The translations under genes were made by a program, and so were the position numbers. A DNA stretch of 43,832 bases from Piscinibacter caeni (GTDB taxonomy: Bacteria; Pseudomonadota; Gammaproteobacteria; Burkholderiales; Burkholderiaceae_C): NCBI GenBank assembly GCA_003265685.1, contig QJOU01000082.1, positions 1 through 43,832 on the forward strand, given 5' to 3'. The notes beneath the pieces are model-generated. The model did not search any database, was not told the DNA's origin, and was given only the letters and a program-made list of their open reading frames with translations. Below, piece by piece: positions 36,740-43,832 of the stretch. Positions within the stretch are counted from its first letter, which is position 1. Each line of letters starts with the position of its first letter.

Positions 36740-38080
36740 TTAGTTGATGAAGTGAAGCGCGCGGAAGCGCTGGCGGAAGGCCTGCACGCGCGGCGCCACC
36801 GCCAGCGGGTCGCCCTCCAGCGCGTCGGCGATCAGCGCGCCGAGTTCGTCCATGTGCGCGGGCCCCATGCCCAGCCGCACGATCTCCGGCACGCCCAGGC
36901 GCAGGCCGTTGACGTCGCCGGCCACCGGCGCGATCGGCAGGCCGATGCCGCAGGCCAGCAGGCCGGCGCGGCCGAGCCGTTTCGCCGCGGCCTGGCCGCC
37001 GCCCCAGCGCGCCGCCTCGACGGCGAACTGGTGCGAGGTGGTGGCGCCGCGTGCCATCGCATGCACCGGCAGGCCGCGCGCCTGCAGCGCGACGGCGAGC
37101 GCACGCGCCGTCTCCTGCATCGCGTGCGCATAGGCGCTGCCGTGGCGGCGCCAGTCGATCAGCCCGACCGCCAGCGCGGCCACGCGGCCGGCGTCGAAGT
37201 TGGCCGTCAGGCCGGGGTAGGCGATCGCGTCCAGGCGCTGCGCGAGCGCCGCGTCGTCGGTGACGATCAGCCCGCCGGGCGGGCCGCCCAGGCTCTTGTA
37301 GGTGCTCATCGTCAGCGCGTGCGCGCCGAGCTTCAGCGGGTTCTGCCAGGCGCGCCCGGCGATCATGCCCGACAGGTGCGCCGCGTCGAACAGCAGCTTG
37401 GCGCCCACCTCGTCGGCCACCGCGCGCAGCGCCGCCACCGGGTGCTCGAACAGGTTCAGGCTGCCGCCCGCGGTGATGAGTTTCGGGCGGTGCTGCAGCG
37501 CCAGCGCGCGCAGCGCCGGCACGTCGACGGTGTAGCCGTCGGCCAGCACCGGCGCGGGAATCGTCGTCAGCCCGTACAGCCCCGCCGCGCCGGCGGCATG
37601 GTGCGTGACATGGCCGCCGATCTCCGGCGGCGGCGCGATGATGGTGTCGCCGCTGCGGCAGGTGGCCATGAACACGTACAGGTTGGCCATCGCACCCGAG
37701 GCCACGCGCACCTCGGCGTAGGCGGCGTCGAACACCTCGGCGGCCAGCTCGGCGGCGATCACCTCGATGCGCTCGATCGCCTCCAGCCCCATCTCGTACT
37801 TGTCGCCCGGGTAACCGAGCGAGGCGCGCGTGCCCAGGCCCGCGGCCATCAGCGCCTCGGCGCGCGGGTTCATCACGTTGCTGGCCGGGTTCAGGTTGAT
37901 GCCGTGCTGGTCGTGGATGCGGCGGTTCTCGGCGGCGAGCCGGAACAGGCGTTCGGCCAGCGTGTCGGCGTCGCTCGCGGCGGTCTCGGCGGCGACGGAT
38001 TGCACGAGGTCCTCGCAGGTGCGCGGGACCCAGGGGCGGCGTTGCAGCATCGGCGGCTCGGTTGGTGGGCGAGCGGTCAT
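36740..38080 (-). CDS. Serine hydroxymethyltransferase-like PLP enzyme
   Basis: A 446-residue (from ATG 38080) or 436-residue (from ATG 38050) fold-type I PLP enzyme related to GlyA. Recognisable segments are LNPASNVMNPRAEALMAAGL, GYPGDKYEMG, LLFDAAHLSGMIAG (Asp and His that hold PLP) and STYKSLGGPPGGLIV with the PLP lysine. In true SHMT that last motif is usually TTTHKTLRGPRGG. Here His is Tyr and the Arg-Gly-Pro-Arg is changed, so the substrate may be different (an alpha-methylserine or threonine-type aldol reaction is possible). Neither start has a strong Shine-Dalgarno. Divergent from uup, with 23 bp between starts. Confidence 0.82.
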   Translation of the reverse strand: MTARPPTEPPMLQRRPWVPRTCEDLVQSVAAETAASDADTLAERLFRLAAENRRIHDQHGINLNPASNVMNPRAEALMAAGLGTRASLGYPGDKYEMGLEAIERIEVIAAELAAEVFDAAYAEVRVASGAMANLYVFMATCRSGDTIIAPPPEIGGHVTHHAAGAAGLYGLTTIPAPVLADGYTVDVPALRALALQHRPKLITAGGSLNLFEHPVAALRAVADEVGAKLLFDAAHLSGMIAGRAWQNPLKLGAHALTMSTYKSLGGPPGGLIVTDDAALAQRLDAIAYPGLTANFDAGRVAALAVGLIDWRRHGSAYAHAMQETARALAVALQARGLPVHAMARGATTSHQFAVEAARWGGGQAAAKRLGRAGLLACGIGLPIAPVAGDVNGLRLGVPEIVRLGMGPAHMDELGALIADALEGDPLAVAPRVQAFRQRFRALHFIN

Positions 38081-38096
38081 TGTGCCGGGGGACAAT
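38079..38096. promoter_or_regulatory. Symmetric AT element between divergent SHMT-like and uup genes
   Basis: ATTGT and ACAAT form an inverted repeat with an 8-bp spacer in a 23-bp intergenic gap. GACAAT at 38091-38096 could be the -10 box of uup, whose ATG follows 7 bases later, implying a leaderless or nearly leaderless mRNA. No good -35 box was found. The inference is weak. Confidence 0.3.
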
Positions 38097-38103
38097 CGGC
38101 CGC

Positions 38104-39986
<1,883 letters not shown>

Positions 39987-39990
<4 letters not shown>

Positions 39991-40646
39991 CGCGGCGCCG
40001 GCAGCTTCTTCTCGGCGTCCTGCCGGTACGCCTGCAGCGCCTTGCCGAGCGTCTCCAGCCAGGCCGACTCGGTGACGATCTGGCGCCCGTCCTCGACATG
40101 CGCGCTGATGGTGGTGGAGCCGGTCGTGCCCGAGACGTCCAGGTCGGTGGCGACGTCGGCCGCCACCGTGATGGCCCAGAAGCCGGGCTGGATCCAGGAC
40201 CAGAACTTCCGGATGTGCACGTCCACGACCAGCGCGTTCGGGTCGGGCGTCTTCTCGTCGCCCACCCGGTAGCCCGCCGCCGTGAACGCCGCGGCGAGGT
40301 TCTCGCGCACCACGCCGGCAACGGTCTGGCCTTCCTGCAGCAGCACGTCGCCGAGCGCCTTGCCGAAGCTGTTGCGCTTGCGGCCGATGGCGCGCGCCTT
40401 GATGTCCGCCGTGGCCTGCGCCGCGCCCTCGAAGCCGAGCGACGGCGTGCTCGGCTCGTCGGGCGCCTGCTCGAACACCCGCTCGTCCGTCACCGAGCGG
40501 ATCAGCACCGCGGGCGCCTTGGCATCCGGCGCGCGGGCGGCGGCCGGGGGCGGCGAGGCCAGCCGGACCTCGCTGCGGCTCGTCGCACAACCTTCGAGCA
40601 GCAGCAGCGGGGCGAGCAGGGCGAGGGCGAGGGTTCGTTTCATCAT
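39987..40646 (-). CDS. YajG-like lipoprotein, stranded last gene of the DUF802 operon
   Basis: A 219-residue lipoprotein. Residues 1-20 form a signal sequence with lipobox LLEGC (Cys20), so the mature protein is lipid-anchored. The chain resembles YajG-like lipoproteins: VLIRSVTDERVFEQ, ARAIGRKRNSFGKALGDVLLQEGQTV, VRENLAAAFTAAGYRV and FWSWIQPGFWAITVAADV. ATG 40646 overlaps the TGA of the DUF2894 remnant (ATGA). The lipoprotein was therefore once translationally coupled to DUF2894 and is now separated from it by the insertion. It probably belongs functionally to the DUF802/OmpA set. The product is unstudied to my knowledge. Confidence 0.8.
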
Positions 40647-40906
40647 GCGGACGAGTCTCCGCGCGCCGCGTCGCCGCCGCGTTGAGCGCGCGCAAGTGGC
40701 GTGCGTCGGCCACCGGGGCGGCCGCGCGCGGCCGTGCCGGGCCTGGCATCGGCCAGGCCGGCCGACTGCTCCAGCCAGAGCAAGGTGTCGACCTGACGCA
40801 GCAGCGCGTCGAGGTAACCCGGCGCGAGCGCGTGCAGTTCGCGCAGCGCGCGGTGCAGCACCTGCGAGGTTTCAGCGGTCCGGCCTGCGCCGGCACCTGG
40901 GCCAGC
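40643..40906 (-). pseudogene. Remnant of DUF2894 gene, original 3' end
   Basis: Read on the minus strand this is the end of a DUF2894 gene without its beginning. LAQVPAQAGPL is followed, after a 1-base deletion relative to the intact copy, by QVLHRALRELHALAPGYLDA, LLRQVDTLLWLEQSAGLADA and a Gly/Arg-rich tail to TGA 40643-40645. It shares 76 identical bases with the intact gene (40794-40869 with 42211-42286). Upstream it fuses to unrelated sequence at about 40907. It overlaps the lipoprotein start. No complete start codon context exists, so it is non-coding or gives at most a 72-residue fragment. Confidence 0.85.
40771..40906 (-). repeat. Direct repeat, left copy (DUF2894 segment)
   Basis: About 136 bp that recur at 42188-42324 in the same orientation. 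The core 40794-40869 is identical to 42211-42286. After a 1-base deletion, a further 27-bp stretch (40873-40899) is also identical. The two copies bound the inserted DNA. Confidence 0.92.
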
Positions 40907-42187
40907 ACCTTAGTCGCGACCAGCGTGCGGCCTTGCCCCAACACAATGCCGCCGGCTCACGTACCGACTTCAAGTCGGCGCCGGGCGCAGGCGAAGTCAT
41001 GCGCCAGTGTTGATCACGAGCGCCGGCCCGGCATGCCCCACGATCTGTTCGCCGACCAAGCTGGCGAAGTCTGTCGACGACAACCGCTTTGCGGCGAGGA
41101 ACTCGAAATGGCTGCAGTAGCCGGACAGCACCTGTTCTCGTGCGCAAAGTCGGCGCGCGTAGCGAATCGCCTGCTCGTCGATGGTCCGGATGCCGGACGT
41201 GAGCGCAGTACCGGGCCCATAGCCGACGCGCAACTGATCAATCCAGTCGATCCCCTTAGTCTGCTTATGGGCGAAGTCGAGCACGGACACCAGGGCCGAT
41301 GCGGGCAGAGCGTTGACATAGCGACCGTCAAGTAGTCTTGCAGCTTCGTCGAGCAGCAGAAGCCGGCGCGCCTGCGCACGCGCCATCTCGGACCAAGCGC
41401 CATGGTACGTGACCATGTCCCGATGCGCAGCCTCGTGCAAGCCAAGGTCGCTCGCGCACAGCACCGCCCCGATCATCGCTGTGGCCGCGAAATCCTCGAG
41501 AACCTCCAAATCGTCCAGCTTGGTCGCACTCGCTGCCTGTGTTCGGTAGTGGTACGCCAGAGACGCAAATGAGGTCTTCGCTGACAGCATCAACTGGTGC
41601 CGCATCTGCCCATTCGTTGCACTCGCTGCATGGGTCAAATCACTGACCGCGGCGCGCAACTGCCCTTCGCTGGCGCTACCCAGCCAGTTCTTTATGGCAG
41701 CCACGCGCTCCTCGACTTGGCTCACCTTCTTCGACAGGTACACAACGCTCACCAGCGACGTCGCGAGTCCGAGTCCGGCGAGGGCGGTCGAGGCCATCGA
41801 CCATGAAAGCACGCGCGAGACTTCCTGGCTTAGCGCGTGCAGTTGGTACCCGTTGATGAGTTCGGGGATCAGATTGAGGCCAGGAACCAGCTGCAGAGGT
41901 GCGGTCGCTGCTGGAAGTGCCAGGTGGGCAAGGATGCGGCCCGACTGATCCCTGATGACGCCGCCATGCAGCGAGTAGATCTGGCTTGCGAGTCCGGCCA
42001 GATAGTCGGCCGGAATCTCCCTGAGCACTGTGAAGCCGGGCGTGCCAATCATTCGCTCCCCCTCCGCCCGTTTCAGCCGGGCTGCTCCGATCCTATCCGG
42101 CCTTGCCGGCGCTGCGACGTCCCCGCTTGCTGGGGTCGCCTCGCGGTGCGTTGCCATTCGTGAGCGAACCGAGCCCACTGGCACTCT
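40907..42187. mobile_element. Inserted lower-GC segment between DUF2894 repeats
   Basis: Some 1.28 kb lies between direct copies of a DUF2894 segment and separates DUF2894 from its former partner, the lipoprotein gene. Hand counts: 62% GC for 41461-41520 and 58% for 41521-41580, against 83% for 42421-42480 in the host gene. It holds one gene (40997-42052), a 7-bp inverted repeat just after it (CCGACTT at 40964-40970, AAGTCGG at 40972-40978) and the new end of DUF2894. No integrase, transposase or terminal inverted repeat is present, so the way it entered is unknown. Single-crossover integration of a circle through the shared segment would give this structure. Confidence 0.7.
40997..42052 (-). 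CDS. Unrecognised membrane protein carried by the insertion
   Basis: A 351-residue protein whose family I do not recognise. The N-terminal 70 residues (VLREIPADYLAGLASQIYSL, HGGVIRDQSGRILAHLAL) look like a small folded domain. They are followed by an amphipathic stretch (LHALSQEVSRVLSW), one membrane helix at about 83-106 and a short coiled coil (KKVSQVEERVAAIKNWLG). A mostly helical soluble domain runs to the end. ATG 42052 has an excellent GGAGGGGGAG ribosome-binding site, and the codons are less GC-biased than in the neighbours. It sits within the DUF2894/lipoprotein junction. A defence, toxin or sensor role is imaginable from the architecture but not supported. Confidence 0.85.
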   Translation of the reverse strand: MIGTPGFTVLREIPADYLAGLASQIYSLHGGVIRDQSGRILAHLALPAATAPLQLVPGLNLIPELINGYQLHALSQEVSRVLSWSMASTALAGLGLATSLVSVVYLSKKVSQVEERVAAIKNWLGSASEGQLRAAVSDLTHAASATNGQMRHQLMLSAKTSFASLAYHYRTQAASATKLDDLEVLEDFAATAMIGAVLCASDLGLHEAAHRDMVTYHGAWSEMARAQARRLLLLDEAARLLDGRYVNALPASALVSVLDFAHKQTKGIDWIDQLRVGYGPGTALTSGIRTIDEQAIRYARRLCAREQVLSGYCSHFEFLAAKRLSSTDFASLVGEQIVGHAGPALVINTGA

Positions 42188-42512
42188 CCAGCCACAATAG
42201 CGCATCGACGTGACGCAGCAGCGCGTCGAGGTAACCCGGCGCGAGCGCGTGCAGTTCGCGCAGCGCGCGGTGCAGCACCTGCGAGGAGTTCAGCGGTCCG
42301 GCCTGCGCCGGCACCTGCGCCAGCGCCTCGCGCAGGCGGCGGTCGACGCGCAGGCGCGCCCAGGTGGCGCCATGGGTGCTGACGGCCTTCAGCGGCGCCG
42401 GCGCGCTCGCCGCCGCGGTGCCGTCGGCGTGCGCCGGCACGCGGCCCAGCCGGTCGACCAGCGCGCGCAGCGCGTCCAGCCCGGCCCGCGGCAGGTCCGG
42501 CGTCGAACTCAT
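42093..42512 (-). CDS. DUF2894 family protein with exchanged C-terminus
   Basis: A 139-residue protein of the DUF2894 family, as I recall it from Burkholderiales. Its core is LDALRALVDRLGRVPAHADG, LREALAQVPAQAGPLNSSQV and LHRALRELHALAPGYLDALL. The last 31 residues (ESASGLGSLTNGNAPRGDPS and a basic tail) come from the inserted DNA and replace the tail preserved in the remnant at 40643. Its ATG overlaps the OmpA-like gene stop by four bases. No enzyme motif or signal peptide is seen. The small soluble protein is probably a cytoplasmic partner of the motor-like proteins encoded before it. Confidence 0.8.
   Translation of the reverse strand: MSSTPDLPRAGLDALRALVDRLGRVPAHADGTAAASAPAPLKAVSTHGATWARLRVDRRLREALAQVPAQAGPLNSSQVLHRALRELHALAPGYLDALLRHVDALLWLESASGLGSLTNGNAPRGDPSKRGRRSAGKAG
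42188..42324 (-). repeat. Direct repeat, right copy (inside intact DUF2894 gene)
   Basis: Partner of 40771-40906. The copy lies inside the readable DUF2894 frame and keeps the frame, whereas the left copy has lost one base near 40870. Distance between copies is 1,417-1,418 bp. Confidence 0.92.
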
Positions 42513-43174
42513 CGCGGGGCCGCCTCGGCGGCCCGGCGGCGTGGCGTCGGCGCCATCTCCACGCGCCGGTTCAGCGCGCGGCCGGCCGCGTCGGCGTTCG
42601 AGGCCACCGGCTGCTCGGCGCCGAAGGCGGCCGCGAACACCGCCGAGGCCGGCACGCCGTCCTCGATCAGCGTGCGTGTCACGGTCAGCGCGCGCTGCGC
42701 CGAGAGTTCCCAGTTGTCGGCGAAGCGGGCACGGCCGCCGTCGCGCACCGGGCGGTCGTCGGTGAAGCCGCTGACCATCAGCACCTCGTCGCGCGTGGCC
42801 AGGTAGGCGGCCAGCGGACCGGCCAGGCTCTTCAGCAGCTGGCGGCCGTCGGGCTGCAGCTCGGCCGAGTTGAACGCGAACAGCACGTTGCCGCTGATGC
42901 CGATGCGGCCGTCGGCCAGCGTCACACGGCCGGCGGCGAGCGGGCCGGCCAGCGCGCGTTCGAGCGCCTCGCGCCGCTGCGCCTCGGCCTGGCGCTGCTG
43001 CACCTCCTGCTTCAGGCGCTCGGCCAGGTCGAGCTGCAGGCCGAGCGCACAGACCAGGATCAGCACGAACGCGCCCAGCAGCCCGGCCATCAGGTCGCCG
43101 AACACGGCCCAGACCGGCGTGGACGCCTCGGGGGCCGCCTCGTCGTCCTCGTCGTAGGCGTGGCCGAACGTCAT
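42509..43174 (-). CDS. OmpA/MotB-like peptidoglycan-binding protein
   Basis: A 221-residue protein. An acidic N-terminus is followed by one membrane helix (about residues 21-48) with Asp27 in VFGDLMAGLLGAFVLILV. This resembles the proton-binding Asp of MotB and ZorB (DLM at the helix start). A short coiled coil leads to the OmpA domain (VLFAFNSAELQPDGRQLL, VSGFTDDRPV, NWELSAQRALTVTRTLI, NRRVEM) that binds the cell wall. It overlaps the DUF802 gene before it and DUF2894 after it by four bases each. It is therefore a likely stator subunit with the DUF802 protein as MotA/ZorA-like partner. Energising by an ion gradient is inferred. Confidence 0.88.
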   Translation of the reverse strand: MTFGHAYDEDDEAAPEASTPVWAVFGDLMAGLLGAFVLILVCALGLQLDLAERLKQEVQQRQAEAQRREALERALAGPLAAGRVTLADGRIGISGNVLFAFNSAELQPDGRQLLKSLAGPLAAYLATRDEVLMVSGFTDDRPVRDGGRARFADNWELSAQRALTVTRTLIEDGVPASAVFAAAFGAEQPVASNADAAGRALNRRVEMAPTPRRRAAEAAPR

Positions 43175-43832
43175 GCCGCGTCCGCCTCGGCGCGCGCGGC
43201 CACCCGCGCGACCTGCTGCAGGTCCTCGACGATCTGCTTCTGCGAGCCGAGCGTCAGGTCGACGATCTCGCGCGCCTGCGCCACGTAGTAGGCGAGCTGC
43301 TCGTCGCTGCGCGCGAGCGAGTGGCCGAGCGCCGCCTCGATGCGCTGCAGCTGCGCCGTCATCTGCGTGCTCGCCTGGCCGAAGGCCTGCACCGCGGCGC
43401 CGAAGCCTTCGCCCAGGCGCGCCACCTCGGCCAGCCCCTGGCTGGCCTGCCCGGCCGCGGCCTGCAGGCGTTGTGCGCCGTCCTCGATCTGGCGCGTGAA
43501 CTGCGCGCCGCTGCGTTCGAGCTGTTCGCCCGCGGCCTGCACCAGCGCGTCGATCGCGGCGCGCTGCTCGCCGCCGGCATGGCGCAGCGCGTCGAGCAGC
43601 TCGCCCAGCGTGGCGAGCAGGCGGTTGCGCTCCTCGAGCGCGGCGTTGTCGCGCGCCAGGCTCTGGCTCAACGCGCCGCGCAGCTCGCCGATCACGGCGG
43701 CCGCGGCGCGCGGGGCGTCCGCGGCCTGGGCGAGCAGCTGGCCGACCTGCGCCAGCGTCTCGCGCGACTGCGCCTCGGTCTGCTCGGCCAGGCGGCGCGT
43801 GCCGGCCTCGAACGCGGCGGCCAGGCGTTGCT
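43171..43832 (-). CDS. DUF802-family protein, C-terminal part
   Basis: The frame is open to the window edge, so the N-terminal part is missing. The 219 visible residues are almost entirely alpha-helical coiled coil (QRLAAAFEAGTRRLAEQTEA, LRHAGGEQRAAIDALVQAAG). They end in LAYYVAQAREIVDLTLGSQK and QIVEDLQQVARVAARAEADA, which I recognise as a DUF802 C-terminus. Full-length members carry MotA/TolQ/ExbB-like membrane helices at the N-terminus and a long tail, as ZorA does. That part is outside the window and cannot be confirmed. It is the first visible gene of a coupled set of four. Confidence 0.8.
   Translation of the reverse strand, partial: QRLAAAFEAGTRRLAEQTEAQSRETLAQVGQLLAQAADAPRAAAAVIGELRGALSQSLARDNAALEERNRLLATLGELLDALRHAGGEQRAAIDALVQAAGEQLERSGAQFTRQIEDGAQRLQAAAGQASQGLAEVARLGEGFGAAVQAFGQASTQMTAQLQRIEAALGHSLARSDEQLAYYVAQAREIVDLTLGSQKQIVEDLQQVARVAARAEADAA

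Follow-up and report, generated by a model that had tools for sequence, protein, structure and literature searches.

In the published accounts of type III Zorya anti-phage systems drawn on here, the DUF2894 protein is ZorG and the DUF3348 protein is ZorF (PMC8565338, PMC11890865). Displacement of gene ends by incoming DNA has been proposed elsewhere: according to PMC5361080, old 3' ends in T6SS immunity arrays and Rhs loci are displaced by homology-anchored insertion. When circularised DNA entered the E. coli chromosome by one crossover (PMC3240628), anchor duplications of 109-950 bp were left in 14 sequenced clones, and 56 of 60 clones were PCR-positive for the duplication; the same source states that homology-facilitated illegitimate recombination (HFIR) typically predicts deletion, not duplication.

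The locus analysed here lies in a 43,832-nt stretch of a Piscinibacter caeni contig (the window). As in the type III Zorya systems of PMC8565338, zorA3, zorB3, and a DUF2894 gene stand in order, but zorG carries a foreign tail, a JukB-like gene has been added, and a DUF3348 gene appears on another contig end only. With the T6SS effector-immunity and Rhs loci it shares a new 3' module at a conserved anchor and an old 3' end orphaned downstream; displacement there is repeated and the modules are related, as far as PMC5361080 describes them, whereas at zorG it is rare and the cargo unrelated. With the circularised-fragment and HFIR insertions it shares one homologous junction and a duplicated anchor, although those were made with laboratory plasmids at lacZ (PMC3240628) and the window holds a natural event with a putative donor. 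Finally, the N-terminal half of the cargo matches the PADLOC profile of JukB from the Juk system described in PMC13282480, whereas the remainder is uncovered by the profile, the insert has no second gene, and the cargo is a predicted protein.

Results

Self-comparison of the window confirmed the 76 identical bases reported in the preliminary description (40794-40869 and 42211-42286). This core is the longest exact repeat in 38000-43832; in 20 mononucleotide shuffles of these positions the longest was 12-16 bp, and exact repeats in window positions 1-40000 reach 20 bp at most. The length of about 136 bp first given for the direct repeats is a fair one: an ungapped search returned 92% over 101 nt and 95% over a further 40 nt, and a gapped local alignment of 42328-42183 with 40910-40765 spans 147 columns. 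The GC content is 0.638 in 40911-42185, the approximately 1.27 kb between the repeats, compared with 0.730 in 38000-40768 and 0.769 in 42287-43832, so the lower GC described for an enclosed 1.28 kb is real. One repeat copy lies in an intact DUF2894 ORF of 139 aa and the other in a frameshifted remnant, again as first described, and both are matched by PF11445 (Table 1). The remnant covers positions 151-183 of the 185 in the profile, which is the C-terminal part of the family, and lacks one base beside the core. Together with the DUF2894 gene, matched as ZorF3, the ZorA3 and ZorB3 matches in PADLOC give the combination that defines type III Zorya; on these matches, the zorG hit by the insertion is the predicted last gene of such an operon. 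The only DUF3348 match in the same genome is partial and sits at the end of another contig (C155). The names clash between sources: the DUF2894 profile matched at 42093-42512 is ZorF3 in PADLOC-DB and ZorG in the papers.

Table 1 Features of the zorG locus in the window.
Feature	Position	Strand	Basis
zorG (DUF2894), intact frame, chimeric	42093..42512	-	PF11445 6.5e-25; PADLOC ZorF3 3.6e-35; alignment with G004
Foreign zorG-like tail	42093..42210	-	None of the zorG genes compared is a close relative; best other match 23/45
Displaced native 3' end of zorG (remnant ORF)	40643..40861	-	PF11445 1.2e-6; 83% over 200 bp to G004, continuing past the stop into the lipoprotein gene
zorB3 (OmpA/MotB-like)	42509..43174	-	PADLOC ZorB3 3.9e-109; PF00691
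zorA3, C-terminal part, truncated by the window end	43171..43830	-	PADLOC ZorA3 8.9e-84
Lipoprotein-like gene, downstream neighbour of native zorG	39987..40646	-	ORF; same order in G004; Pfam Lipoprotein_16 below cut-off only
Cargo: JukB-like protein gene, 351 aa	40997..42052	-	PADLOC JukB 3.2e-9 in a 402-aa ORF; no Pfam family
Repeat copy A	42183..42328	-	Exact core 42211-42286; gapped and ungapped alignments
Repeat copy B	40765..40910	-	Exact core 40794-40869; gapped and ungapped alignments
Foreign DNA, spacer from cargo to remnant	40911..40996		No match elsewhere

The empty site anticipated by the preliminary description, with DUF2894 directly overlapping the lipoprotein gene, was found in a genome of the same genus (G004), where the two genes overlap by ATGA. 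The DUF2894 protein of G004 ends in ..GGDATRGDSSA, and the remnant has this same C-terminus. In a three-way alignment, copy A tracks G004 up to about 42211 and diverges after it, and copy B tracks G004 on the 3' side of the core. The intact zorG copy is thus a chimera, native in its 5' part to about 42211 and foreign in its 3' part, and the remnant keeps the native 3' end. The foreign and native tails agree at 18 of 30 ungapped positions (shuffle mean 8.2). Because the foreign tail also resembles zorG, the right junction lies at homologous positions, where two diverged DUF2894 tails meet at equivalent codons. The core matches its own copy at 76 of 76 positions, and its next best match is G004, with a score of 54 of 76. 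Conservation across many genera keeps the left part of the repeat from being assigned to native or foreign DNA: for that part of copy A, L201 is a slightly better match (score 35) than copy B (34). The empty site and the right junction at equivalent codons support the earlier proposal that recombination at DUF2894 brought in foreign DNA with part of that gene.

The insert holds a single long ORF, and the ORF list of the insert gave no second gene that could be a JukA partner. Since this cargo gene starts 40 bp behind the zorG stop on the same strand, it is probably co-transcribed with zorG. Its match to the PADLOC JukB profile runs over positions 10-153 of 323, the N-terminal half alone, and not over the full length that marks a Juk system. 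A search of NCBIfam gave matches far below cut-off only, the PDB sequence search returned one match with an E-value of 0.54, and the predicted structure is poor (mean pLDDT 42.5). The gene is rare: with the own genome counted each time, the cargo protein had matches in 4 of 299 relatives, a search with a two-row alignment found relatives in 2 of 369 class genomes, and the JukB profile hit 6 of 299 family genomes. A homologue in G279 is 41% identical to the cargo and matches the JukB profile at 6.5e-12. Near some homologues (G279, G420) lie genes for what we take to be WYL-like regulators. A home-made JukB-like profile, which recovered the known cases used to build it and two weaker ones (L238, L239), detected no JukB-like gene in any of 120 fetched zorG loci.

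Neither the scan of genome contigs nor that of viral contigs returned a donor with zorG beside the cargo. Protein searches of plasmids and phages likewise gave no donor (one plasmid match had 22% identity), and neither did DNA searches. A 126-base query for the 40911..40996 region matched 1 of 60 genomes, which was the own genome, and no plasmid, and two patterns from that region were absent from the viral contigs. Because no donor was found, the left junction is unreadable, and we infer the route by which the insert arrived.

The locus probably arose by recombination anchored in zorG homology, most simply by a single crossover with a circularised fragment, which would have duplicated part of zorG and given it a foreign tail. 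The putative donor fragment would have carried the zorG 3' end of another lineage followed by the JukB-like gene, and would have recombined with the resident zorG. At the homologous junction, an exchange near 42211 at equivalent zorG codons would have replaced the native tail and left the frame open. The left junction, near 40910, would be non-homologous; since it lies upstream of the right junction in zorG terms, about 117 bp of zorG was duplicated. The native 3' end was shifted about 1.3 kb downstream, where the remnant acquired its frameshift. The simplest version needs one crossover with a circularised, end-trimmed fragment, and it is ranked ahead of HFIR because a deletion would be expected from the latter. 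A homologous junction at equivalent positions and a duplicated or lost anchor are the marks of homology-anchored insertion, and the locus shows such a junction together with duplication. Against this route, donor and host would need to be almost identical across about 115 bp and to agree at only about 60-68% beyond it.

Of 399 family genomes, 122 have a PF11445 match, counting the own genome, and 120 DUF2894 loci were compiled from 119 of the other 121 genomes (G104 twice; G194 and G484 left out). Since most loci carried 13-15 kb of downstream sequence and some were shortened by contig ends (1.42 Mb downstream in total), longer insertions would escape the survey. A displaced zorG 3' end was clear in two of 282 ordered same-genus pairs, the window with G004 (1e-56) and G319 with G511 (2.5e-15); the other 14 hits listed were at 1e-5 or weaker. 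A second-copy DNA search detected an 86-bp zorG fragment in G332 (L057 7865-7950; 90.7%) about 3 kb downstream and over the same codons as the core of the window, with no native zorG tail behind it; in a profile search of the loci, this fragment was the only match away from the zorG gene itself. Insertion at the 3' end of zorG therefore recurs but is rare, comes without a visible tyrosine integrase, and is not linked to defence in the other two cases. Of the hotspot suggested in the preliminary description, what stands is the two clear displaced ends and the partial remnant in G332, a weak case given how rare recurrence is. Its expectation of other cargo at the same position holds in G319 and G332, whose inserts carry unrelated genes, but in these two other cases only.

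In G319 (L147), approximately 4.4 kb has been inserted within the 3' end of zorG, and the last native bases of the gene are stranded at about +4369 from the stop. Several other candidates were rejected. Downstream repeats above 50 bits in L115, L143, and L152 lie beyond the zorG stop, one of them starting 3 nt before it, and a second zorG fragment in G104 has the same symporter-like neighbour on both contigs, which points to a strain duplicate within that assembly. blastn alignments broke inside zorG by more than 20 bp on both sides in 8 of the 22 pairs at >=85% identity, among 122 pairs, a count made with no other gene as control. The three cases inspected (g110, g22, g31, but not g129 and g179) showed either low-complexity tails that drift or insertions beyond the stop, and were set aside as signs of a hotspot; G319 against G511 is the only alignment-break case that keeps a displaced native end. 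Judged by look, the cargo of the other inserts is ordinary, presumably TrpB-like in g110, receptor-like in G319, and nitroreductase-like in G332.

The preliminary description had alternatively proposed an attachment-like site of an element that repairs its target gene. In this reading, a small element whose attP is the zorG 3' end would have been inserted by an integrase that acted in trans or was since lost, and the element would have brought a gene end of its own. A frame kept open and direct repeats on either side of the insert agree with it, though the repeats are also expected from a crossover, and the G332 remnant covers the same codons, but it does so in the stretch of highest conservation, where a match is easiest to detect. 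A JukB-like homologue in G350 (L231 7062-9099) lies directly behind a 207-aa tyrosine recombinase, look-alikes of which were seen by eye in the own genome (G000:C40 and G000:C11); no long direct repeat surrounds that gene. No tyrosine recombinase was detected in the 1.42 Mb downstream of zorG in the 120 loci, with a profile that covers the tyrosine class only and that recovered its own seeds and two outside loci (L195, L196). The sole long ORF of the insert is not a tyrosine recombinase either (no Pfam match), leaving no integrase of this class in the insert or its surroundings. Phage records contained no DUF2894 match, the viral-contig scan gave no relative that was confirmed, and zorG receives a foreign tail, not its own. 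These findings speak against a target-repairing element and make site-specific integration unlikely.

A tandem duplication of zorG followed by decay, in which the 5' part of the second copy disappeared and the lower-GC gene came in between the two copies on its own, would fit a remnant that is decayed and frameshifted, but it leaves unexplained why the foreign tail is on the intact copy and the native tail on the decayed one, and the exact 76 bp favours a recent single event; we regard it as highly improbable. An assembly artefact that fused two strains through the 76-bp overlap is the least probable explanation: the genome is a draft of 310 contigs with 2.81% contamination, and a strain duplicate of zorG does occur in another assembly (G104), but two false joins would be required, only one of them in a long exact overlap, and no second copy of the insert occurs in the own genome.

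Discussion

Homology-anchored recombination is the preferred explanation. New relative to the preliminary description is that the target gene appears to belong to an anti-phage operon and that the cargo resembles part of another anti-phage system. The locus is a readable scar of the addition of a defence-like gene to such an operon; no integrase is visible, and the two junctions, the displaced native end, and an empty site are all available. The scar alone is an ordinary product of recombination, of a known kind but interestingly placed, and the pairing of Zorya with a JukB-like gene may be due to chance. A bolder and quite doubtful reading is that type III Zorya operons recruit membrane effectors, JukB-like ones among them, at an exchange point in the zorG 3' end, and that 3' displacement thereby diversifies these operons, as in T6SS and Rhs loci. 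As the foreign zorG tail stands directly before the cargo, recruitment would imply an unsampled lineage with an established pair of zorG and a jukB-like gene. If the JukB-like protein does work with Zorya, the locus would be a testable case of effector recruitment.

Two further observations concern the surroundings of these genes. Shorter JukB-like genes with a gene of approximately 200 aa just upstream occur in G393 (L228 958-2543) and G182 (L016 923-2448), and each pair is possibly a two-gene system. In the genus of the window, an ABC-F-like gene (in the 38110-40646 stretch) is present in 8 of 8 genomes searched, the match continues through the lipoprotein gene in the window and G004 only, and DUF2894 was found in the same two genomes only, so the stretch from Zorya to the lipoprotein gene may itself be a variable region.
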